Below are positions 41,132 to 64,000 of a stretch of 64,000 nucleotides of DNA, one piece after another. This DNA is from Halorussus salinus (GTDB lineage: Archaea > Halobacteriota > Halobacteria > Halobacteriales > Haladaptataceae): contig NZ_SBIS02000007.1 of the NCBI RefSeq assembly GCF_004765815.2, positions 124,001 through 188,000 on the forward strand. Reading direction: 5' to 3'. The notes under the pieces were generated by a model. The model saw only the letters and a list, made by a program, of their open reading frames with translations, was not told the origin of the DNA and searched no databases. The position numbers were made by a program, and so were the translations under genes. Within the stretch, counting starts at the first letter, position 1; each line of letters opens with the position of its first letter.

Positions 41132-42799
41132 TCACGCGAACTGCCGCTCGAACTCCCGAATCGTCGCGTCGGTCCCGGCCACCACGAGGAGGTCGCCCGC
41201 TTCGATGGTCGTCTCCTCGTCGGTGACGAGCGCGCCGTCGCGCTCCACGCCGACGAAGACGCACTCCGCCCGCGTCTCGGCGCTGGCCTCCGCGAGCGTG
41301 CGCCCGACGAAGGCTCCGGCCTCGGTGCGGACGATACGCAACTGTTCGAGCGGAGTGAGAACGTCCTCGCCCCGGAGTTCCCGCGCGAGGAGGCGGGCGC
41401 TCACGCGCTGGGTCGAGAGGACGTAGTCCGCCCCGGCGTCGAACGCGGTCGGGGACTTCGCGGTGCCGTCCACCCGGACCAGAATCTCGATGTCGTCGGT
41501 GAGCGTGCGGGCGATGGCGACCGTGAGCATCGCCGTCGAGTCGTCTTCGACCGTCACGACGAGCGCGCTGGCCTCGTCGATGCCCGCGAGTTCCAGCGTC
41601 TCGGGATCGCGCACGTCGCCGACCACGTCCACGTGGCGGCCCTCCTGCTGGTCGATGGTCGTGGCGGTGACCTCCTCGGGGAGCGCGTCGTAGGCCGCCC
41701 GGCCGCCGACGCCCATCCCGGCGACGACGACGTTGGCGTGGCGGCGTGGCGGTCGGAGTCCGGCCGCGAACTCCTGCACGTCGTCGATGGCCGACTCGGT
41801 GCCCGCGACGATGAGGACCGAGTTGGGCGTGACGACCTCGCCGGGGTCTACCGGAAGTCGGAGGTCGCCGTCTATCCACGCGCCGACGAGCGAGAGTCCG
41901 GTCCGGCCCGCGAGCGCGGTGTCCTCGATGCGAACGCCGCACAGCGGACTGTTGCGCCGGACCAGTACCTCCCGGATGCGAACGTCGCCGACGGTGGCGT
42001 CGCCCATCGACTCGGGCGTGTCGGCCCACGCCGCGGTCTTCTGGCCGAGTCGCCGCCCGATGAGCGCGTCGGGCGACAGCACGGCGTCCGCGCCGACCTC
42101 CCGGAGCGCGGCGTCGTGGTCCGGCGTGTCGGTGAACGAAATCACGCGGAGGTCCGGGTTGTGTCGCAGGGCGGTCAGGACGACGCTCGCGTTGCGGTCG
42201 CCCGCGTCGGCGACGAGCGCGCTGGCGTCGCGTATCAGCGCGCGTTCGAGTTGCGCGCCGTCCTCGGGGTCACCGTGAATCGCCTGATACCCCTCGTCCG
42301 AGAGTCGCTTGGCTTCCTCCTCGTCGGATTCGAGCAGGACGTACTCGACGTTCAACCGCTCCAGTTCGTCCAGCAGGACGGCGGTGTCCCGGCGGTACTC
42401 GCAGACGACGACGTGGTCGTCCTTCGCGGTCAGGCGGTCGCTGAGGTCCAGCGGCGTGCGCTCGAACAGCGGGATGATGAGGACCCGGAGCGTGGCGAAC
42501 CCGATGACGATGCCGGTCAACTGCATGAAGACGACGAAGAGGTTCATCAGCGGGGACGACCACGGAGCGTCCGCGCCGTACCCAGTCGTCGTCATCGTCT
42601 CGGTGACGGTCGTGAACGACCGGAACAGCGAGTGGTCCCGTCCCTCCAGTGTCCGCATCCCGTAGTTGTATAGAAGTGTGTACAGCAGGACGACCGCGAC
42701 GACGACCGCGGCGTAGGCGACCACGAGGCGCTGGCGGCGGGTCAGCCACGGGAGCGGTGCATCCTTGTCCGCGAAGATATCTGTCCAGTCGCCGCTCAT
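41132..42799 (-). CDS. Potassium channel with two RCK (TrkA-N/TrkA-C) modules
   Basis: 555 residues. Two N-terminal membrane helices flank a pore loop with the selectivity filter TTTGYGAD (about 70-77). RCK1: VVVCEYRRDTAVLLDEL (about 130) with a TrkA-C part ending near 330. RCK2: VVVAGMGVGGRAAYDALPEEV (about 350) and a second TrkA-C part near the end. It conducts K+ under control of a nucleotide or ion bound by the RCK domains. In a high-salt archaeon that stores K+, this is central to ion balance. ATG at 42799. Confidence 0.92.
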   Translation of the reverse strand: MSGDWTDIFADKDAPLPWLTRRQRLVVAYAAVVVAVVLLYTLLYNYGMRTLEGRDHSLFRSFTTVTETMTTTGYGADAPWSSPLMNLFVVFMQLTGIVIGFATLRVLIIPLFERTPLDLSDRLTAKDDHVVVCEYRRDTAVLLDELERLNVEYVLLESDEEEAKRLSDEGYQAIHGDPEDGAQLERALIRDASALVADAGDRNASVVLTALRHNPDLRVISFTDTPDHDAALREVGADAVLSPDALIGRRLGQKTAAWADTPESMGDATVGDVRIREVLVRRNSPLCGVRIEDTALAGRTGLSLVGAWIDGDLRLPVDPGEVVTPNSVLIVAGTESAIDDVQEFAAGLRPPRRHANVVVAGMGVGGRAAYDALPEEVTATTIDQQEGRHVDVVGDVRDPETLELAGIDEASALVVTVEDDSTAMLTVAIARTLTDDIEILVRVDGTAKSPTAFDAGADYVLSTQRVSARLLARELRGEDVLTPLEQLRIVRTEAGAFVGRTLAEASAETRAECVFVGVERDGALVTDEETTIEAGDLLVVAGTDATIREFERQFA

Positions 42800-53129: not shown

Positions 53130-54296
53130 ATGAAGCTCGCAATGATAGGCTTCGGGCAGGCCGGAGGGAAGATAGTGGACAAGTTCGTCGAGTACGACCG
53201 GGGGACGGGCGCTAACGTCGTCCGGTCGGCTATCGCGGTCAACACCGCGAAAGCGGACCTCGCGGGACTCGAACACGTCCCCGAGCGAAACCGCGTCCTC
53301 ATCGGACAGGCCCGCGTGAAGGGCCACGGCGTCGGCGCGGACAACGAACTGGGCGCGGAGATAGCCGAGGAGGACATCGACGAGATTCAGGGCGCGCTGG
53401 ACGACGTGGCGGTCCACGAGATAGACGCGTTCCTCGTGGTCGCTGGCATGGGCGGGGGCACCGGGTCGGGCGGCGCGCCCGTCCTCGCCAGTCACCTCAA
53501 GCGCATCTACACCGAACCCGTCTACGGACTGGGCGTCCTGCCCGCCGAGGACGAGGGCGGCATCTACACGCTGAACGCCGCGCGGTCGTTCAAGACCTTC
53601 GTGGACGAGGTGGACAACCTGTTGGTCTTCGACAACGACGCGTGGCGAGAGACCGGCGAGTCGGTTCGGGGCGGCTACGACCGCATCAACGACGAGATAG
53701 TCCGACGCTTCGGCATCCTCTTCTCGGCGGGCGAGGTCCGGGAAGGCGAGGCCGTCGGCGAGAGCGTCGTGGACTCCAGCGAGATAATCAACACCCTGTC
53801 GTGCGGCGGTATCTCGACGGTCGGCTACGCCACCGAGGAGGTCGAGACGGCGGGCGGCGGCGGACTCCTCGGCCGGTTCTCGGAGGACGACCTCGACGCG
53901 ACGGAGACGACCAACCGCATCACGAGTCTCGTCCGGAAGGCCGCGCTCGGGCGGCTCACGCTCCCCTGCGAGGTCCGAAGCACCGACCGCTCGCTCGTGG
54001 TCGTCAGCGGTCCGCAGGACCACCTCAACCGGAAGGGCATCGAGCGCGGCCGCCAGTGGCTCGAAAACGAGACCGCCAGCATGGAGGTCCGTGGCGGCGA
54101 CTACCCGCTGGACGACACCGACCACGTCGCGGCGGTGACGCTCCTCTCGGGCGTCACGGACGTGCCGCGCGTCGAGGAGCTACAGGATGTCGCCGTCGAG
54201 GCCCAAGACAACATCGCGGACATCGAGGACGAGAGCGACGAGAATCTGGAGAGCCTGATTCGAGACGACGGCGACGAACTGGAAGCGCTGTTCTGA
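53130..54296 (+). CDS. cetZ: CetZ-type tubulin-like GTPase, second copy
   Basis: 388 residues, starting MKLAMIGFGQAGGKIVDKF exactly as the copy at 12.4-13.6 kb. It shares the T4 loop GMGGGTGSGGAP, the KRIYTEPVYGLGVLP segment and the NRITSLVRKAALGRLTLPCE region. It differs mainly in a shorter loop near 245-265 and a slightly shorter acidic tail. Standing alone, it lacks the overlapping secreted-protein partner of the first copy. Two near-identical CetZ proteins suggest paralogues with split roles in cell shape. Confidence 0.94.
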   Translation: MKLAMIGFGQAGGKIVDKFVEYDRGTGANVVRSAIAVNTAKADLAGLEHVPERNRVLIGQARVKGHGVGADNELGAEIAEEDIDEIQGALDDVAVHEIDAFLVVAGMGGGTGSGGAPVLASHLKRIYTEPVYGLGVLPAEDEGGIYTLNAARSFKTFVDEVDNLLVFDNDAWRETGESVRGGYDRINDEIVRRFGILFSAGEVREGEAVGESVVDSSEIINTLSCGGISTVGYATEEVETAGGGGLLGRFSEDDLDATETTNRITSLVRKAALGRLTLPCEVRSTDRSLVVVSGPQDHLNRKGIERGRQWLENETASMEVRGGDYPLDDTDHVAAVTLLSGVTDVPRVEELQDVAVEAQDNIADIEDESDENLESLIRDDGDELEALF

Positions 54297-54795: not shown

Positions 54796-55533
54796 TCAGT
54801 CGCGCTCGCCGAGGAGTGCCGCCGCGGCGTCGCGGTCGGCGGGCGTGTTGACGTTCACGCGCTCGGCGTCCAGCGCCATTGCTTCGACGTGCGCCCCCGC
54901 TCGAAGCAGGACGCCGAGCGCGTCGGCGAGTTCGTACTCGCCGCGGTCGGACGGCCGGACGAGCGAGAGGGCGTCGAAAATCTCGGCGGGCAGGACGTAC
55001 GCGCCGGTCGTCGCCAGCGTCGAGGACGGGTCGGCCGGTTTCTCCTCGATTTCGGTGACGCGGTGGCGCTCGCCGGGGTCGTCGGAACCCGAATCGACGC
55101 GGACCACGCCGGTCTCGCGCGCCGCGGCGAGGTCCACTTCTTCGACGGCGAGTACCGCATCTACGTCGTCGGCCCGCTGGCGGGCGATATGCGGGCGCAA
55201 GTCGCCCGCGACCACGTTGTCACCGTTCAGGACGACGACGGGACCATCGACGTACGACTCGGCCTGTAAGACGGCGTGGCCGAGACCCAACCGCTCGTCC
55301 TGTTCGACGTACGAGAGCGCGACTCCGGCGGCGCTGTCGCCGAAGCGGTCCCGAATCGCGTCGCCCTCGTAGCCCACTACGACGACGATTTCGTCCACGC
55401 CGCTGTCCGCCAGCGTCTCGAACACGTGCCCGAGGAGCGGCCGTCCGGCGACCTCGACCAGTCCCTTCGGCTTCTCGTCGGTCAGCGGCCGGAGGCGGGT
55501 CCCCTCACCCGCGGCCGGAACGACTCCGAGCAT
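54796..55533 (-). CDS. aglF: Sugar-phosphate nucleotidyltransferase (AglF/glucose-1-P uridylyltransferase-like)
   Basis: 245 residues. MLGVVPAAGEGTRLRPLTDEKPKGLVEV is the signature GxGTRLxPxT...KP; VVLNGDNVVAG and the EEKPADPSS loop follow. It makes UDP- or dTDP-sugar for glycan assembly; AglF of Haloferax has this role in S-layer N-glycosylation. ATG at 55533 was chosen over 55644. The glycan genes that begin at 57 kb and this gene are in the same region but not one operon. Confidence 0.85.
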   Translation of the reverse strand: MLGVVPAAGEGTRLRPLTDEKPKGLVEVAGRPLLGHVFETLADSGVDEIVVVVGYEGDAIRDRFGDSAAGVALSYVEQDERLGLGHAVLQAESYVDGPVVVLNGDNVVAGDLRPHIARQRADDVDAVLAVEEVDLAAARETGVVRVDSGSDDPGERHRVTEIEEKPADPSSTLATTGAYVLPAEIFDALSLVRPSDRGEYELADALGVLLRAGAHVEAMALDAERVNVNTPADRDAAAALLGERD

Positions 55534-55652
55534 GCCTCCGGGTTGGACGCCGAGCGACCTGTACCTGCCGACCGTCCGGGACCGCCGACCCCAAACCGCT
55601 GACCCGAAACCGCCGACCGAGTATTCTTGACGGTGGCACGCCACGCTTCCGC

Positions 55653-56504: not shown

Positions 56505-56930
56505 CTACGCTTCCAGAATCTCCACGAGGTTGCCCTCCGGGTCGCGGACGAACAGGATTTTCGTCCCGCTGGCGGTCGTCCGCGGTTCGCTCAGCGTCTC
56601 GACCTCGGGCGGGAGTTCTGCGTAGAAGCTATCGAGGTCCTCGACCGCGAGTCCGAGGTGCTTCGCTCCGGGCTGGTTGACTGTCTCTGCGTGGGACTCC
56701 TCGCCCTCGGGGTCGTAGGCCACGAGTTCGACGCGGGCCGACCCCGCGTCGAGGTGTGCGAACTCGCCGGTCGCACCCGGTACGCCGACGCCCTCGGCGA
56801 ACTCCTCGCCCGACACGGAGAACCTGTCCAGCACGTCGAGACCCAGCACGTCGCGGTAGAACGCGACCGCGCGGTCGAGGTCCGTCACCGTCACGCCAGT
56901 GTGGTGTGCAGTTAGCTCTGTCGTCGTCAC
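56505..56930 (-). CDS. VOC/glyoxalase I-like protein
   Basis: 141 residues. HHTGVTVTDLDRAVAFYRDVLGL with metal His near 9-10, HLGLAVEDLD with a second His, and FVRDPEGNLVEILEA with the final Glu: a full VOC metal set (H, H, E). It isomerises or cleaves a small electrophile such as methylglyoxal adduct; substrate unknown. Convergent with the two-module VOC gene, 20 bp apart. Confidence 0.88.
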   Translation of the reverse strand: MTTTELTAHHTGVTVTDLDRAVAFYRDVLGLDVLDRFSVSGEEFAEGVGVPGATGEFAHLDAGSARVELVAYDPEGEESHAETVNQPGAKHLGLAVEDLDSFYAELPPEVETLSEPRTTASGTKILFVRDPEGNLVEILEA

Positions 56931-57043: not shown

Positions 57044-59419
57044 ATGAGTACTGTACGCGAGGCGACCGACGCCCTCCTCGAGGAGAAACCCGGCCTCGAA
57101 TCGGACCTCCGCGAGGTCCTCGCGGTGGACGAGCGCGCCGACGGCTGGACCTTCGACGACGTGCCCGTGGACTCGGGCACCTTCGGCGAACTCGTCTCCC
57201 GCGACATCGTCGCCGAGAACGGCGACGGGTACGAAGTCGCCGACCCCGACGCCGTCCGCGCGGGTCTCGATGGAGATTCGGAAACCGCGGACGACGCGGG
57301 CAAGAGCGGTGGCCCGTCGCTCTCGTCGCTCTCGCTCGGATCGCTCCCCTCGCTTTCGCGGCTCGAAGCGGGCGCGCTCACTGGCGCGCTGGCGTTCCTT
57401 GTCCTGATGAGAACCTACATCTTCCCGAGCGTCTTCCGGGGCGAGTACGTCGTCCTGCCCTCGAACGACCCCTACTACTACCGCTACTGGGTCGAACAGC
57501 TCTCCGCGGAGGCGACCGGCGTCTTCGACTTCAGCGTCCTCTCGGGACTCCCCGATGCCGTGGCGAAGGGCGAACCGCTGATGGTCGGGACGCTCTGGTG
57601 GTTCACGAACCTCCTCGGCGGAGCCGACGCCGCTGGGTGGGTACTGGCGTGGTACCCCGTGGTCTCTGCGCTCGTCGTCGGACTCCTCGTCTACGCGCTG
57701 GCGGTCCGGGTCACCGACGACCGCCGGGTCGCGCTCGCCTCCGTCGTATTCCTCGCGGTAATTCCCGCGTTCGCCTACCGGACCGGCCTCGGGTTCGCCG
57801 ACCACCACGCCTTCGACTACCCGTGGCTCGCGCTGACCGCGCTCGCGCTGGTCTGGCTCTCGGGCGTCGAGCGCGAGGAGCTTTCGTCTCCGAAGCCGTG
57901 GCTCGCCGCCGCCGCCCTCGGCGTCGCAGTCGCCGGGCAGGTGATGGCGTGGGAGGCCGGATCGCTCCTCGTCGGCGCTATCGGCGTCTTCGCCGCGGTC
58001 CGAGCGGCCGCCGACGTTCGCGCCGACCGGTCGCCGCTCGTCGCGAGCGCGCCGCTCCTCGGCGGACTGGCGGTTGCCGCCTTGCTTTCGCATTTCGCAC
58101 ACACCGGGTTCGGGTGGCACACCGACGTAGTGGCCTACTCTCCGGCGCTGTTGCTCGTCGGCGTGCTGGGCGTCTCGCTTGCGGGCGAGGCAGTGCGTCG
58201 GGCCGGGATGCCCGCGTTCGTCCTCGGAGGTGCCGAAGTCGCAGGTGGGTTGAGTGCGCTGGCCCTCCTCCAGTTCGTCCTGCCGACGTACGCGAGCCGC
58301 CTGTACAGTCAACTTGACGTTCTCCTTTTCAACTCCGGTCCCGCCGAGACGCAATCTCTCTTCTCGGGCGGCCCCCAAGGGTTCCTCCTCGGTCCGATTC
58401 TGGAACTCGGCTTCGCGTGGCTGCTCGCCGTCCCGATGCTGGCGCTAGTCGGGTGGCGGGCCTACCGGCGCGAGAACGTCCTGTGGCTAGTCGTCTGCAC
58501 TTACGCCGGGTACTTCCTCGTGCTAGCGACGTTTCAGCGCCGGTTCGTCGGCGAGTTCGCCCCCTTCGCGGCCGTACTGGCGGGCTACGGCTTCGTCGCG
58601 TTCGCGGCGAAACTTGACGTAATCTCGGCGCTCGATTTCGGCGACGACGACCCGCGAGGAGAGGAGGACTCCCAGCCCTCGCTCGCCCTGCCTGACAGGG
58701 GGACCGCCGCGACCCTCGCGGTACTCCTCGTGTTCGTCGTTAGCGCGGGCGGGGTCCAAACCGCGGTCCGCCACCAACAGGTGAAAATCGTAGACAATAA
58801 GTTTGAGGCGGCGACTTGGATGGACGGCTACGCGACGGAGCAGGACTGGGAGTACCCCGAGAACTATGTCCTGAGCAAGTGGGGCCGCAACCGGATGTAC
58901 AACTACTTCGTGAACGGTCATTCCAGTGCGTACGGCTTCGCCAGAGACCACTACGAGGCTTTTCTCTCGTCGTCGGATCCCGAAGCACAATATCTACAAT
59001 TACGTGAGAGAGTCGGCTTCGTCGTGACGAAGAACGTTGATTTGAACGGGCAAGTTGCACCGAGGACCAACTACGCACGACTCCACAAGCGGTTCGGGAG
59101 TGCCGGACCGAACGGTGCGAGCGGCGCGGGTCACTACCGGGCGCTCTACGCGAGCGACGACGGATCGGTGAAGGTGTTCTCGCTAGTTCCGGGTGCGAAT
59201 CTTACGGGAACCGTCAAGAGCAACGAGACCGTGACCGTCTCGAAGCAAATCCAAGTCGAGGGCGCGTCGTTCACGTACCGGCGGAACGTTCGAGCCGGTC
59301 CCGATGGAAAGCTCGCTGTAACGGTTCCCTACGCGGGGTCATACTCAGTCGGGAACTCGACAGTCGAGGTGCCCGAGAGCGCCGTCGAGAACGGCGGTAA
59401 CATCACGGTCGGCGCGTAA
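57044..59419 (+). CDS. STT3/AglB-like membrane protein with N-terminal winged helix and atypical catalytic motif
   Basis: 791 residues. A winged-helix-like N-terminus (about 1-78), then 11-13 membrane helices. The first external loop has SNDPYYYRYW (N141-D142-P143), the metal-binding Asp region of oligosaccharyltransferases, and GFADHHAFDYP (about 247) matches the DHH motif. The C-terminal soluble domain (from about 580) has YVLSKWGRNRMYNYFVNGHS where STT3 has WWDYG; the motif Asp is missing. It is therefore either a divergent oligosaccharyltransferase or a related polymer-type glycosyltransferase. It starts the right-hand glycan cluster. Confidence 0.82.
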   Translation: MSTVREATDALLEEKPGLESDLREVLAVDERADGWTFDDVPVDSGTFGELVSRDIVAENGDGYEVADPDAVRAGLDGDSETADDAGKSGGPSLSSLSLGSLPSLSRLEAGALTGALAFLVLMRTYIFPSVFRGEYVVLPSNDPYYYRYWVEQLSAEATGVFDFSVLSGLPDAVAKGEPLMVGTLWWFTNLLGGADAAGWVLAWYPVVSALVVGLLVYALAVRVTDDRRVALASVVFLAVIPAFAYRTGLGFADHHAFDYPWLALTALALVWLSGVEREELSSPKPWLAAAALGVAVAGQVMAWEAGSLLVGAIGVFAAVRAAADVRADRSPLVASAPLLGGLAVAALLSHFAHTGFGWHTDVVAYSPALLLVGVLGVSLAGEAVRRAGMPAFVLGGAEVAGGLSALALLQFVLPTYASRLYSQLDVLLFNSGPAETQSLFSGGPQGFLLGPILELGFAWLLAVPMLALVGWRAYRRENVLWLVVCTYAGYFLVLATFQRRFVGEFAPFAAVLAGYGFVAFAAKLDVISALDFGDDDPRGEEDSQPSLALPDRGTAATLAVLLVFVVSAGGVQTAVRHQQVKIVDNKFEAATWMDGYATEQDWEYPENYVLSKWGRNRMYNYFVNGHSSAYGFARDHYEAFLSSSDPEAQYLQLRERVGFVVTKNVDLNGQVAPRTNYARLHKRFGSAGPNGASGAGHYRALYASDDGSVKVFSLVPGANLTGTVKSNETVTVSKQIQVEGASFTYRRNVRAGPDGKLAVTVPYAGSYSVGNSTVEVPESAVENGGNITVGA

Positions 59420-59523
59420 GAGTCAGCACGGACTGTCAACGCTGCCACAACGAGGACTCGGACGAGGCCGAACCCGAATCTGCCCCAGTGGCTTTTTCTT
59501 AATCGACGTTGCCATCCGTCGTA

Positions 59524-60510
59524 ATGCGAATACTCGTTACCGGAGGAGCGGGCTTCATCGGCGGCCACCTCGCCGAGGAGTTCGCCCGCGACGGCCACGA
59601 CGTGGTCGCGCTCGACAACTTCGAACCGTTCTACGACACGGGAATCAAGGAACACAACGTCGAGGCCGCGCGCGAGGCGGCCGCGGAGAGCGATGGCTCC
59701 TACGAACTGGTCGAGGGCGACGTGCGCGACGAGGAGGCCGTCTCCAAACAGGTCGCCGACGCGGACTACGTCTTCCATCAGGCCGCCCAAGCCGGAGTCC
59801 GAACGAGCGTCGAGGAGCCCCAGAAGGTCAACGACATCAACGTCTCGGGGACGCTCAACGTCCTCGAAGCGGCGCGGGACTCCGACACCGAGCGCGTCGT
59901 CGTCGCCTCCTCGTCGTCGGTGTACGGCAAGCCCGAGTACCTCCCCTACGACGAGGAGCATCCGAACACGCCCGTCAGCCCCTACGGTGCCTCCAAAGTC
60001 GCCCAAGAGCAGTACGCCAGAGTCTACAACGAAGTGTACGGCCTGCCGACGGTCTCCCTGCGGTACTTCACGGTGTACGGCCCGCGGATGCGGCCGAACA
60101 TGGCCATCAGCAACTTCGTCTCGCGCTGTATGAACGGCGAGCCGCCAGTCATCTACGGCGACGGCACCCAGACGCGGGACTTCACCTTCGTCGGCGACGT
60201 GGTCGAGGCGAATCGCACCCTGCTGGAGACCGACGCCGCGGACGGCGAGGCGATGAACATCGGGAGTACCGACAACATCGAGATTCGGGTGTTGGCCGAG
60301 GAGATACGCGACCAACTCGCGCCCGACCTCGAACTGGAGTTCGGCGAGCGCAACGACGCCGACGCCGAACACACTCACGCCGACATCTCGAAGGCGAGCG
60401 ACCTCCTCGGCTACGAGCCGACTACGACCATCCGGGAGGGCGTCGAGGAGTTCACCGAGTGGTACCGGGCGAATCGGGAGTGGTACGAACCGCTCGTTCG
60501 GAACTCCTGA
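59524..60510 (+). CDS. Extended SDR NAD-dependent sugar epimerase
   Basis: 328 residues. MRILVTGGAGFIGGHLAEEF, VFHQAAQAGVRTSV, catalytic Ser in VASSSSVYG with YGASKVAQEQY (Tyr-x3-Lys), LRYFTVYGPRMRPNMAI and the TRDFTFVGDVVEA segment. It resembles UDP-glucose/UDP-glucuronate 4-epimerases and so supplies nucleotide sugars to the glycan cluster. ATG at 59524 was chosen over 59509. Same strand as the STT3-like gene, 104-bp gap. Confidence 0.9.
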   Translation: MRILVTGGAGFIGGHLAEEFARDGHDVVALDNFEPFYDTGIKEHNVEAAREAAAESDGSYELVEGDVRDEEAVSKQVADADYVFHQAAQAGVRTSVEEPQKVNDINVSGTLNVLEAARDSDTERVVVASSSSVYGKPEYLPYDEEHPNTPVSPYGASKVAQEQYARVYNEVYGLPTVSLRYFTVYGPRMRPNMAISNFVSRCMNGEPPVIYGDGTQTRDFTFVGDVVEANRTLLETDAADGEAMNIGSTDNIEIRVLAEEIRDQLAPDLELEFGERNDADAEHTHADISKASDLLGYEPTTTIREGVEEFTEWYRANREWYEPLVRNS

Positions 60511-60556: not shown

Positions 60557-60579
60557 AACTGACTGTGCGAGATAGCGTG

Positions 60580-62016
60580 ATGGTGTCGGGACATCAGTAT
60601 CGAGTCGTGAGCGTCGTCGGGACCCTGCTGGGGACAGTGGCGGCCGTGGTCGTCACCAACCACCCCGCGGCGCAGTGGCTGACGACGGTCGTTCCGGTGT
60701 TCCGGCGACTCCCGGCGAACGTATTGACGGGCGACAAGTTGACGCTCGCGGCGGTGACGAGCGCGCTCATCGTCCTCGGGTGTCTCCTCCCGCTGTTCAA
60801 ACCTCGTCCTCGGCGCATCCTCGACACGATTCTGCTGACCCAGAAGCGCGTGGTCGTCGCCGGGTTCGCCATGGCGACGGTCGGCTACTTCGACTGGAGC
60901 TATCCGCTTCCGCGCTCGACGCTCGCGCTGACGGTCGTCGTCATGCTGGTCGCGTTCCCGGTGTGGTTCGTCGCCATCGGTTACCGGCCCGGCCGCGAGG
61001 AGCGAGCGGTCGTCGTCGGCGACGACCCCGAGGAGATTCGGGACGTTCTCGACGCGACCGACGTACCGGTGGTCGGCTACGTCTCGCCGCCGAGCCCCTA
61101 CTACGAAGGCGAGCGCGGCGTCGCCACCCCGGCCGTCGCCGACGGGAGCGGCGAGGGGGCACTCGACGACCTCGACTGTCTGGGCGGTCTCTCGCGGCTG
61201 GACGAGGTGCTGGTCGAGTACGACGTGGACACCGCAGTACTGGCGTTCGCCCATCCCGACCGCGCGGAGTTCTTCGGTGCGCTCGACGCCTGCTACGAAC
61301 GCGGCGTGGACGCGAAGGTCCACCGCGACCATGCCGACGACGTGCTGACCGCCACGACGGCGACGGGCAACGAGACGATAGTGGACATCGAACTCGAACC
61401 GTGGGACTGGCAGGACTACGTGTTCAAGCGGGTCTTCGACGTGGCGTTCGCGGCGGTAGGCTTGCTGGCGTTCGCTCCTCTTATCGCGGTCATCGCTGTG
61501 GCTATCAAGCTCGACAGCCCCGGCCCGGTGTTCTACAGTCAAGAGCGCACCGCGGAACTAGGCGAGACCTTCGAGGTGTACAAGTTTCGGAGCATGGTGA
61601 CCGACGCCGAGGCCGAGACCGGCGCGACCATCAGCGACGAGGACGCTGGCGGCGTGGACCCGCGAGTCACGCGCGTCGGGCGATTCCTCCGCCAGACGCA
61701 TCTGGACGAAGTTCCGCAACTCTGGTCGATTCTGGTCGGCGACATGAGCGTCGTGGGACCGCGACCCGAACGCCCCGAGTTGGACGCCGACATCCGGTCG
61801 GGCGTCGTCGAGTGGCGCAAGCGATGGTTCATCAAGCCAGGGCTGACTGGGTTGGCGCAGATTAACGGCGCGACGGGCCACAAACCCGAGAAGAAGTTGC
61901 GCTACGACGTAGAGTACGTCCGCAAGCAGTCGTTCTGGTTCGACCTGAAGATTGTTATTCGGCAGGTGTGGGGCGTGCTGGAAGACGTGAAACGGTCACT
62001 GCGCAAGCGGGAATAG
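60580..62016 (+). CDS. Polyprenyl-phosphate sugar-phosphate transferase (WcaJ/WbaP type)
   Basis: 478 residues. N-terminal four membrane helices (to about 140), a Rossmann-like CoA_binding_3 domain (145-275), then the bacterial sugar transferase domain: KRVFDVAFAAVGLLAFAPLI, LDSPGPVFYSQERT, FRSMVTDAE, DEVPQLWSILVGDMSVVGPRPER and KPGLTGLAQINGATG. It moves a hexose phosphate onto a lipid carrier, the first step of a glycan chain. It probably serves the STT3-like gene and the glycosyltransferases to the right. Confidence 0.92.
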   Translation: MVSGHQYRVVSVVGTLLGTVAAVVVTNHPAAQWLTTVVPVFRRLPANVLTGDKLTLAAVTSALIVLGCLLPLFKPRPRRILDTILLTQKRVVVAGFAMATVGYFDWSYPLPRSTLALTVVVMLVAFPVWFVAIGYRPGREERAVVVGDDPEEIRDVLDATDVPVVGYVSPPSPYYEGERGVATPAVADGSGEGALDDLDCLGGLSRLDEVLVEYDVDTAVLAFAHPDRAEFFGALDACYERGVDAKVHRDHADDVLTATTATGNETIVDIELEPWDWQDYVFKRVFDVAFAAVGLLAFAPLIAVIAVAIKLDSPGPVFYSQERTAELGETFEVYKFRSMVTDAEAETGATISDEDAGGVDPRVTRVGRFLRQTHLDEVPQLWSILVGDMSVVGPRPERPELDADIRSGVVEWRKRWFIKPGLTGLAQINGATGHKPEKKLRYDVEYVRKQSFWFDLKIVIRQVWGVLEDVKRSLRKRE

Positions 62017-62085: not shown

Positions 62086-62829
62086 TCACTTGGGGCGACA
62101 AAACCACGGATAACCGCGCTCAGTCACTTCGTAGTCGAGTTGCTCGAAGAACGAACGAAGTTTTCCGTCACGTGTCTCGCCGTCGGAGATTTCGTGACGT
62201 TCGAAGTAGATATTCGGTTCGTAGTTCTGAATGACCTGTTCGGCACCTCGTAGGACTTCGAGACCTAGACCTTCTACGTCGATTTTCAGATAGTCCGGTG
62301 GTTCGATTTCACCGTCGGCAACGAGACCGTCGAGCGTCTCGACCGAGACGGTAGTGGTCCCGATTATCTCCTCGTCGCCGTACTTGGCGTTATACCTATT
62401 GAACGAGCTTCGTCCCGACTGAGACGACATGTAGAAAGTCGACTCGTCGGAGGCGCTGGACAGGCCGAGATTCATCGGTTCGATTCGGTCTGGGCTTGCA
62501 GAGGCCGCGACGTTTTTCCGGAATTTCTCGAACGTCTGGGGATTCGGTTCGAACGCGTAAACGCGACACCCCTTTTCGGCTAGCGGTAGAGAGTAATCGC
62601 CTACGTTTGCACCGATGTCAAGGACTACGTCGCCCGCAGAAGCCTCCGCGAGTATCGTTTCGAGCATCGGTTCGGACCCCGGCGGTTCGAGATTGTAACT
62701 CTTGTATCGGACCCCGTCGATTTCCTTTCCGAGTGGCCAAATCTCATACTCGTAGTTTGCCTCTTCGATTTTCCTCCCTATCGTTATCAGACTGTCTGGG
62801 AGATTGGACAATAGCTGTCTACTGGTCAT
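62086..62829 (-). CDS. FkbM-family SAM methyltransferase
   Basis: 247 residues. SAM motif I VLDIGANVGDYSLPLA, FEPNPQTFEKF, IEPMNLGLSSASDE, VSVETLDGL and KIDVEGLGLEVLRGA identify the FkbM family, which methylates hydroxyl groups of sugars or polyketides. Composition is more AT-rich than in the centre of the window. Placed among glycan genes on the opposite strand, it probably methylates a surface sugar. Confidence 0.9.
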   Translation of the reverse strand: MTSRQLLSNLPDSLITIGRKIEEANYEYEIWPLGKEIDGVRYKSYNLEPPGSEPMLETILAEASAGDVVLDIGANVGDYSLPLAEKGCRVYAFEPNPQTFEKFRKNVAASASPDRIEPMNLGLSSASDESTFYMSSQSGRSSFNRYNAKYGDEEIIGTTTVSVETLDGLVADGEIEPPDYLKIDVEGLGLEVLRGAEQVIQNYEPNIYFERHEISDGETRDGKLRSFFEQLDYEVTERGYPWFCRPK

Positions 62830-62955: not shown

Positions 62956-64000
62956 CTACTTTGTCAGTAATTCCTTATAGAGGGCTTCCGTGTCGTCGAG
63001 AAACCGTTCCTCGCTGAACCGAGTTTCCGCCCGTAGTCGGGCGTTTCGGCCGTATTGACGTCGGCGATCTGTCTCCGAAAGGAGTTCGTTGATAGCGTTC
63101 GCTAGTGCGGTCGAGTCCCGAGGAGGGACCGTCAGTCCGGTCTCACCGTCCTGACTCACCCACGGTACGCCGGACGGCAGGTCGGTGTTGACCACCGGCG
63201 TGCCATGAGCCATCGCCTCCAACTGGACGATGCCGAACGCTTCGCTCGGGACCGACGACGGGAGGACGAACACGTCGGCCCTGTTGTACAGGCGGTGGAG
63301 CTGTTCGTCGGTTACGTAGCCAAGGAACCGAACTCGCTCCTCAATACCAAGCGATCCGACATGGGCTTCGAGGGCCTCCCGCCGATCACCGTCGCCCGCT
63401 ATCAGAAGCGTAGCATCGACATCAACCATCGCCTCGACGAGATACTCTAATCCCTTGTAGTAGATGAGTCGCCCAGCGAACAGCAGGACCGGTTGCGAGT
63501 CATCCACCTCGGAGACAGCGGTCGAGTCGTCTTCGAAGCGATTTGCGTTGGAGCTGTCACTATCGAGGTCGGAAACGGGATACTCGTCGAGGTCCACGGC
63601 GAGGGGAATCACCTCGCACTTGTCCTCGTACTGTGGGAGAACCTGTGAGTGTTCAACCAGCGCGGGCGAGGTGGCGAGGATGCGGTCGGCGCGATCAAGG
63701 AAGCGTTCGAGAAACGGACGGTAAGCGCGGGCGATAGCCGCTTGTCGCACGATGTCGCTATGATAGGTCACGACGACAGTGACATCTGTCGGGGCAGTAG
63801 CGAGATGCGAAATCGCGGCGAGTGGGTGTGGAAGATGATAGTGAACCACATCGTGCGTACGAACGAGTCGTCGGATGTGGAGCGGGAGCGTCGGTGCGAG
63901 CGGTACCGAGAGAAGTTTACCGATACTGCCCACCCTATGAACCTGAACACTATTGACGCGGTCGCGTCTGCCGGTCCCCTGCGGGACGGCCGAGAGGACC
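62956..64000 (-). CDS. Family 4 (GT-B) glycosyltransferase, N-terminus beyond the right edge
   Basis: The reading frame stays open through position 64000, so the N-terminal Rossmann half is cut. Visible: THDVVHYHLPHPLAAISHLA, VVVTYHSDIVRQ, PLAVDLDEYP, VLLFAGRLIYYKGLEYLVEA (donor-site start), FLGYVTDEQLHRLY, VFVLPSSVPSEAFGIVQLEAMA with the E-x7-E motif, and NTDLPSG. It retains a GDP/UDP-sugar. The GTG at 63933 is not the true start; residues before it continue the family pattern. Confidence 0.9.
   Translation of the reverse strand, partial: VLSAVPQGTGRRDRVNSVQVHRVGSIGKLLSVPLAPTLPLHIRRLVRTHDVVHYHLPHPLAAISHLATAPTDVTVVVTYHSDIVRQAAIARAYRPFLERFLDRADRILATSPALVEHSQVLPQYEDKCEVIPLAVDLDEYPVSDLDSDSSNANRFEDDSTAVSEVDDSQPVLLFAGRLIYYKGLEYLVEAMVDVDATLLIAGDGDRREALEAHVGSLGIEERVRFLGYVTDEQLHRLYNRADVFVLPSSVPSEAFGIVQLEAMAHGTPVVNTDLPSGVPWVSQDGETGLTVPPRDSTALANAINELLSETDRRRQYGRNARLRAETRFSEERFLDDTEALYKELLTK

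Follow-up and report, generated by a model that had tools for sequence, protein, structure and literature searches.

The window analysed here, a 64,000-nucleotide stretch of the Halorussus salinus genome, encodes a transferase of the STT3/AglB fold, which we call STT3L, in which the WWDYG motif is replaced by another, conserved motif. Judging from its associations, we put at about even the chance that STT3L is a second oligosaccharyltransferase (OST), which glycosylates S-layer-type proteins at their N-terminal Asn from a dolichol-pyrophosphate (Dol-PP) donor, with no need of a sequon. The gene and its sites are given below; residue counts refer to 128 family sequences, that is, the query plus 127 unique full-length loci (148 of the 149 loci were full-length and the one partial locus was left out).

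57044..59419, + strand: STT3L gene, 791 aa, STT3/AglB-fold transferase without WWDYG
57044..57274, + strand: N-terminal domain, modelled with a winged-helix-like arrangement and related by homology to the corresponding domain of the EMC3-like insertase in this genome
57461..57490, + strand: SNDPYYYRYW, residues 140-149, with the loop-1 catalytic Asp D142 (128/128)
57800..57808, + strand: DHH, residues 253-255, metal site
58346..58348, + strand: E435, Glu of the TIXE motif (127/128)
58541..58543, + strand: R500 (128/128), which pairs with the Arg of GQNRF in A. fulgidus AglB (AfAglB)
58865..58903, + strand: WWDYG site with the signature W613-x-x-N616-R617-x-Y619-N620, placed by conservation and by alignment to WWDYG
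59192..59395, + strand: AglB_L1-like C-terminal peripheral domain (PF18079, 37.7 bits)

STT3L scores 32.6 bits against PF02516, over the gathering threshold, and 149.6 bits against TIGR04154, far under that model's cut-off of 450 bits. We assumed translation to start at the ATG at 57044, the frame being open upstream to a GTG at 56756; since the starts of the other family members were picked near this Met, the conservation of Met1 is no independent evidence for it. In the AlphaFold model (pLDDT 89.6, pTM 0.82) an N-terminal domain of about 75 residues precedes the STT3 membrane domain and a short peripheral domain of the AglB_L1 type. The closest solved structure is AfAglB (3waj, Z 35.9, rmsd 3.7 over 594 aligned residues; Foldseek against 7e9s, also AfAglB, E 8.6e-24), and eukaryotic STT3 proteins are the next-best solved relatives. 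The fold is shared with Campylobacter PglB (Z 25.0), and the C-mannosyltransferase DPY19 and ArnT have a related membrane fold (Z 23.5 and 25.0) at lower similarity than AglB. By sequence, the family profile matched only AglB entries in the PDB (AfAglB chains, E 4.5e-34).

The initial annotation, made from the sequence alone, had stated that the first-loop Asp (in SNDPYYYRYW) and the DHH motif of OSTs are retained, and both are found, at residues 140-149 and 253-255. In the family profile alignment D142 pairs with the Asp of GGNDPWYYY in AfAglB, DHH with NDHH, and E435 with the Glu of TIAEV. Within the metal site H254 is invariant, D253 occurs in 105 of the 128 members (Glu in 23) and H255 in 103 (Arg in 23); the changes R246Y, D253E and H255R co-occur in 23 members, the window protein not among them. 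According to an excerpt of a review, the catalytic and metal residues of AglB are D47, R154, D161, H163 and E360, with D47 and E360 as the acidic pair that holds the acceptor Asn amide; the matching of STT3L residues to these numbers is our own, putative reading. The hallmarks of the STT3/AglB superfamily (membrane fold, loop-1 Asp, metal-site Asp/His, TIXE Glu) are thus all present, and STT3L shares with the A. fulgidus and haloarchaeal AglBs (TIGR04154, GT66) its fold, its loop-1 Asp, a D-x-H metal site, the TIXE Glu and the AglB_L1 domain. Unlike AglB, STT3L has no WWDYG, carries an extra N-terminal domain, and has genes for a polyprenyl glycosylphosphotransferase (PGT) and UppP among its neighbours; in the window genome it is also the smaller protein, 791 versus 1056 residues.

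The extra N-terminal domain had been described as a winged helix. It is winged-helix-like in the model, although structure searches gave weak matches (best Z 7.5, and none by Foldseek with E < 0.001), which leaves the description plausible rather than shown. By sequence it matches the N-terminal domain of the EMC3-like insertase of the same genome (37.4 bits, 78 of 80 positions), a hint that STT3L may dock near the protein-insertion site through this common domain.

That the protein is STT3-like and lacks WWDYG, the central statement of the initial annotation, holds throughout the family. The sequence found at the site, SKWGRNRMYNYFVNG, begins at residue 611. The alignment with AglB proteins that the annotation had called for was run with hhalign, using 40 STT3L members and 27 canonical haloarchaeal AglBs (prob 100, E 1.6e-40): YVLS-KW-GRN of STT3L faces GVMS-WW-DYG of AglB, x-W-G stands in place of WWD, and no shifted WWDYG was found in this profile-profile comparison. 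WW[DNE] occurs at the site in none of the 128 members, and the lone instance anywhere in them is in the membrane part of L073, near residue 266. The residues at the site are conserved: W613 and N620 in all 128 members, R617 in 127, Y619 in 112 and N616 in 111. The core W-x3-R-x2-N is present in 127 of 128 and the full W-x-x-N-R-x-Y-N in 98. Residues 613-624 form a single predicted helix in the AlphaFold model, and the spacing of W613, R617 and N620 fits one face of it; these three residues may line the former sequon pocket. Sequon OSTs also have a DK or MI motif next to the +2 pocket; past residue 633, where the AglB alignment ends, the near-invariant columns of STT3L contain no conserved D..K. 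Conservation of the replaced motif across 128 members, and an intact AglB elsewhere in the genome, led us to reject a decayed AglB or pseudogene.

This intact AglB, another point that had been raised for checking, is encoded on contig C3 of the window genome; it scores 932.7 bits against TIGR04154 and carries VMSWWDYGHWIT, a normal WWDYG, which rules out STT3L as the sole STT3 of the organism. Canonical AglB scored above the cut-off in all 26 genomes searched, 18 with and 8 without STT3L, and WWDYG is present in 27 of the 27 canonical AglBs read (those 26 genomes plus the window genome). STT3L is therefore an addition to AglB. A match to STT3L with E ≤1e-10 was obtained in 160 of 293 Halobacteriales genomes, with at most three candidates scored per genome, so that some members may be missed; about 156 were counted as true after dropping G004, G109, G163 and G178 (E > 1e-20), which may be AglB. 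The distribution is patchy (4 of 13 Halobacterium and 75 of 170 Haloferacaceae genomes), and outside Halobacteriales a phylum sample of 294 genomes gave weak, partial matches alone (best E 5e-18). Within the 170 Haloferacaceae, the 15 genomes of genus g51 all lacked a match to STT3L. This genus is probably Haloferax, judging from 81-87% DNA identity to a H. mediterranei plasmid stretch and from an S-layer N-terminus in G308 that resembles what we take to be that of H. volcanii. With no g51 genome among the 75 matching Haloferacaceae, a role for STT3L as the second OST of Haloferax (Asn-498) is unsupported.

Around STT3L, the window contains the following genes:

54796..55644, - strand: AglF-like sugar nucleotidyltransferase (289 bits, under the AglF cut-off of 400)
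59509..60510, + strand: NAD-dependent sugar epimerase/dehydratase (PF01370/PF16363)
60565..62016, + strand: PGT, initiating enzyme (PF02397, 210.9 bits)
62086..62829, - strand: FkbM methyltransferase
62956..63999, - strand: GT4 glycosyltransferase, extending beyond the end of the window

The PGT scores 293 bits against TIGR03025, barely below the cut-off of 295.55. Past the window, to about 207.7 kb on contig C4, the cluster encodes two further glycosyltransferases, a UDP-sugar dehydrogenase, an epimerase, a methyltransferase, a phosphodiesterase, a Wzx-type flippase, GlmS and GlmU homologues, UppP, and a weak Wzy_C-like membrane protein (22.7 bits, below the cut-off of 31.7); in its middle, about 3.5 kb (195.6-199.1 kb) yielded zero genes through the filter used. 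STT3L itself had no match to the Wzy_C domain (PF04932) at E 0.001. A comparison of neighbourhoods, in which contig ends cut some STT3L and AglB loci (e.g. the AglB controls L225 and L221), found a PGT within 9 kb at 62 of 114 unique STT3L loci (31 of them within 1.5 kb) versus 0 of 18 AglB loci (p 3.6e-6), and when the same 18 genomes were compared the counts were 8/18 versus 0/18 (p 0.003). UppP was near 16 of the 114 STT3L loci (11 within 1.5 kb) and GlmS near 17, each versus 0/18 (p 0.13 in both cases), while PGF-CTERM neighbours (9/114 vs 1/18) and GT4 neighbours (37/114 vs 7/18) did not differ significantly. PGTs produce sugars linked to polyprenyl-PP, and polyprenyl-PP is the substrate that UppP dephosphorylates. 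A Dol-PP donor follows naturally from this chemistry, and we infer that STT3L uses a dolichol-pyrophosphate-linked glycan. Such a pyrophosphate-type donor, together with the STT3 fold, would liken it to Campylobacter PglB; unlike STT3L, PglB keeps WWD and reads D/E-X-N-X-S/T, according to excerpts of reviews (including PMC2952790). In H. salinarum and Hfx. volcanii alike, the carrier of the AglB pathway is given in the literature as dolichol monophosphate (including PMC3871713).

An acceptor for such a donor is described in H. salinarum. Its S-layer protein bears a repeating-unit glycan on Asn-2, for which bacitracin inhibition indicated a Dol-PP carrier, as well as O-linked disaccharides on Thr (both from sections of PMC2952790). 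When Ser-4 of the Asn-Ala-Ser sequence was changed to Val, Leu or Asn, Asn-2 was still glycosylated, and the same sections offer no suitable explanation; this puzzle dates from 1998 (Zeitler 1998, as described in part of a review). They report one OST gene in H. salinarum, and state that WWDYG is present in all oligosaccharyltransferases (PMC2952790). A portion of PMC3871713 describes a further OST at work in Hfx. volcanii, its gene not named, and adds that the same may apply to H. salinarum, and whether AglB handles the Dol-PP glycan is called unclear in an extract of PMC6591318 (2019). Our search of open-licence PMC papers found none linking an STT3 paralogue to the H. salinarum Asn-2 glycan.

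Among the best 80 of 104 relatives, an STT3L orthologue is found in Halobacterium salinarum DSM 3754 (L094). There the S-layer gene csg (TIGR04216, 1181 bits) lies 3.3 kb upstream of STT3L, separated from it by genes for a CARDB protein and an ABC exporter. After STT3L come GlmS, two Arch_glmU and a PGT, so that a pyrophosphate-type initiating enzyme and HexNAc genes stand beside the transferase. With this proximity to csg, these neighbours and no Ser/Thr pocket motif, STT3L resembles the OST expected for the Asn-2 Dol-PP glycan, a link by association and in DSM 3754 rather than the classical strain. Strains 63-R2 (the source of R1/NRC-1, on which the classical biochemistry was done) and 91-R6 (DSM 3754) are described, in an excerpt of their comparison, as 99.64% identical in common chromosomal segments, with large, glycosyltransferase-rich replacements. 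Part of an NRC-1-based table lists VNG0001H, VNG0002G (yvrO, ABC transporter ATP-binding protein) and VNG0003C together. That grouping fits DSM 3754, where a CARDB gene, an ABC ATPase and a permease come in this order. The csg gene, which we take to be VNG2679G, would be at the opposite end of the VNG numbering.

Of 13 Halobacterium genomes, 4/4 with STT3L and 1/9 without it matched csg strongly (p 0.007), and G135 has a weak partial match. STT3L and csg are 3.3 kb apart in G064 (the DSM 3754 genome), 4.1 kb in G160 and 19.4 kb in G151, and in G095 fragments of STT3L lie between two csg copies with an intact STT3L about 47 kb off. S-layer or surface glycoprotein genes are also linked to STT3L on three of six plasmids: csg, STT3L and UppP lie together in Haloplanus GDY1, two PGF-CTERM proteins, STT3L, UppP and a sugar transferase in Salinigranum rubrum, and a surface glycoprotein is 7 kb from STT3L in Salinibaculum KK48. 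The records of the other three plasmids gave no csg-like match. As a general rule of the family csg proximity is weak, csg being within 9 kb in 5 of 114 loci.

If cleaved as in the classical strain, the DSM 3754 Csg would begin ANADQV, with an Asn-2 that has no Ser/Thr at +2. Since Asn-2 is the Dol-PP glycan site in the literature, we compared the N-termini of surface glycoproteins (proteins with a TIGR04207 signal) between 35 genomes with and 35 without STT3L, a non-random sample chosen by family and STT3L status. After rows with E > 1e-8 were excluded, 103 proteins from 32 STT3L-positive and 33 STT3L-negative genomes remained. Under a strict rule, in which Asn directly follows an Ala (or Ala/Val) run at an inferred cleavage site, Ala-Asn N-termini were found in 29 of 53 proteins versus 3 of 50 (p 4e-8) and in 22 of 32 genomes versus 3 of 33 (p 6e-7). 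Stratified by family, the association had p 4e-5, and none of 20000 shuffles of the labels within families matched it; with the genomes collapsed by genus and STT3L state it stood at 14/20 versus 3/15 (p 0.006). A relaxed rule gave 28/32 versus 8/33 genomes and 18/20 versus 6/15 genera. The csg N-termini of Halobacteriaceae had suggested the hypothesis, so leaving that family out makes for a cleaner test; the counts then were 17/24 versus 1/20 genomes (stratified p 4e-4). Automatic re-extraction, with some parse errors (F rows), gave 26/53 versus 3/50 proteins; Asn alone was enriched after the Ala run in STT3L-positive genomes, and Ser was depleted (1 vs 9). In the Ala-Asn proteins of STT3L-positive genomes, 23 of the 29 N-terminal Asn lie outside N-X-S/T.

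The association has exceptions in both directions. Among the rows read, 10 of 32 STT3L-positive genomes have no strict Ala-Asn (G007, G024 and G071, three Natrialbaceae, and G160, G041, G049, G101, G147, G168 and G212), and 3 of 33 STT3L-negative genomes have it (G039, G135, G268). Halobacterium taken by itself is indecisive (strict 3/4 vs 1/8, relaxed 3/4 vs 3/8). In STT3L-positive Halobacterium, Csg begins QAGN in G160, one of the four genomes, and AGD in the second copy of G095. The csg homologue of the window genome begins ADVQRGG, and its Ala-Asn protein (AANHDT, C1:782383) is another surface glycoprotein. A universal Asn-2 in csg was therefore rejected, being absent from G160, from one G095 copy and from the window genome (L261 and L262 were left out).

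These data give good support to the initial annotation's suggestion of a divergent acceptor: the +2 pocket motif is exchanged for another conserved motif while the donor and metal site is kept, a canonical AglB exists elsewhere, and presence of the gene tracks an N-terminal Asn that mostly lies outside a sequon. In our proposal, the cluster-encoded PGT would begin the glycan on dolichol pyrophosphate, glycosyltransferases would lengthen it and the Wzx-type flippase flip it outward, with polymerisation possible, and STT3L, with its AglB-like metal centre, would pass it to a surface glycoprotein that has been exported; UppP would then recycle the dolichyl pyrophosphate. Within STT3L, activation of the acceptor amide and of the lipid-PP donor would fall, as it does in AglB, to the conserved metal site together with the loop-1 Asp and the TIXE Glu. 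Because W-x3-R-x2-N replaces the +2 Ser/Thr pocket (WWDYG), the acceptor Asn would need no N-X-S/T. The preferred acceptor would be an Asn at or beside the new N-terminus (Ala-Asn-...) of S-layer-type proteins, with specificity coming from position as that N-terminus threads past W613, R617 and N620. In all this, we infer a protein acceptor, an Asn linkage, the N-terminal site and the role of R617 and N620.

The same loss of WWD in 128 of 128 members could also be read differently. STT3L might be a second Dol-PP OST that targets Ser/Thr or many non-N-terminal sites, the N-terminal Asn being a by-product of S-layer type; the O-linked disaccharides on Thr of the H. salinarum S-layer protein and the surface-glycoprotein genes beside STT3L would suit such O- or multi-site glycosylation. 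We hold it to be unlikely, as the acidic pair expected to hold the Asn amide is kept (D142 in 128/128, E435 in 127/128) and Asn is the sole residue enriched after the Ala run in STT3L-positive genomes. An activity without a protein acceptor, ligating or polymerising exopolysaccharide or a lipid-linked glycan, was also considered, and the initial annotation had raised a non-N-glycosylation polymer reaction. Neighbours of exopolysaccharide type (PGT, Wzx, the weak Wzy-like protein) and the STT3-like membrane fold common to ArnT, Emb and DPY19 speak for it. Yet AglB is the closest in fold (Z 35.9 vs 25 for ArnT), the acceptor-amide Asp and Glu are kept, the cluster has a weak Wzy-like candidate of its own, and STT3L has genomic and phyletic ties to S-layer proteins, all of which makes this activity improbable. 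Most doubtful of the alternatives is that STT3L is an AglB paralogue with weak catalysis or a regulatory role, such as a competitor or donor-binding protein: the joint variation of the metal site (R246Y, D253E, H255R) in 23/128 members would fit it, whereas the loop-1 Asp, TIXE Glu and R500 are invariant or nearly so, and the AglB and STT3L clusters are separate, with different donor genes.

In its fullest form our reading of STT3L, to which we give somewhat less than an even chance, is that of a dedicated haloarchaeal N-terminal OST with a W-x3-R-x2-N pocket, perhaps with EMC3-type docking, which would transfer Dol-PP-linked (polymeric) glycans to Asn 1-2 of freshly cleaved S-layer proteins and would be the missing enzyme for H. 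salinarum Asn-2. A named, deletable gene beside csg makes the Asn-2 puzzle directly testable. If true, a glycosyltransferase that modifies N-termini free of a sequon would be useful for glycoengineering, and STT3L could settle the puzzle posed in 1998 by Asn-2 of H. salinarum.

The N-terminal domain of the STT3L protein (the haloarchaeal STT3/AglB-fold paralogue without WWDYG) is homologous to that of a haloarchaeal EMC3/TMCO1-like insertase, and in both proteins this shared domain had no match in Pfam. Some members of the family carry an additional Laminin_G_3/concanavalin-like domain at the C-terminus, which is perhaps a glycan-binding module. One Haladaptatus STT3L (L237) is annotated solely as a LamG-like protein.

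Domains of STT3L proteins and the neighbouring CetZ gene
Window 53130-54296: CetZ gene, upstream of STT3L
Window 57044-57274: STT3L N-terminal domain, homologous to the EMC3/TMCO1-like insertase (37.4 bits)
Genome G000, contig C2, about 42075-42227 (locus L003): N-terminal domain of the EMC3/TMCO1-like insertase, homologous to that of STT3L (37.4 bits)
STT3L locus L058, C-terminal ~150 aa: Laminin_G_3/concanavalin-like domain (95.9 bits)
STT3L locus L054, C-terminal ~150 aa: Laminin_G_3/concanavalin-like domain (36.9 bits)

In the family alignment, the metal site carries R246Y, D253E and H255R jointly in 23 of 128 members, several of them Natrialbaceae (Natrialba, Halobiforma, Natrarchaeobius and Halostagnicola), with Natronomonas and others also represented. 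CetZ matches were found at 8/121 loci, some of these Halorussus, and its proximity to STT3L is likely plain synteny.

The N-terminus of csg, the S-layer glycoprotein gene, reads ANADQV in Halobacterium salinarum DSM 3754 (L094:3145-5685); for the classical strain, a cited paper title gives Asn-Ala-Ser. This region may have recombined between H. salinarum strains. Another Halobacterium genome (G095:C1:205000-224900, L230) has a csg copy on either side of fragments of STT3L and pieces resembling GlmU, an arrangement that suggests S-layer cassette exchange.
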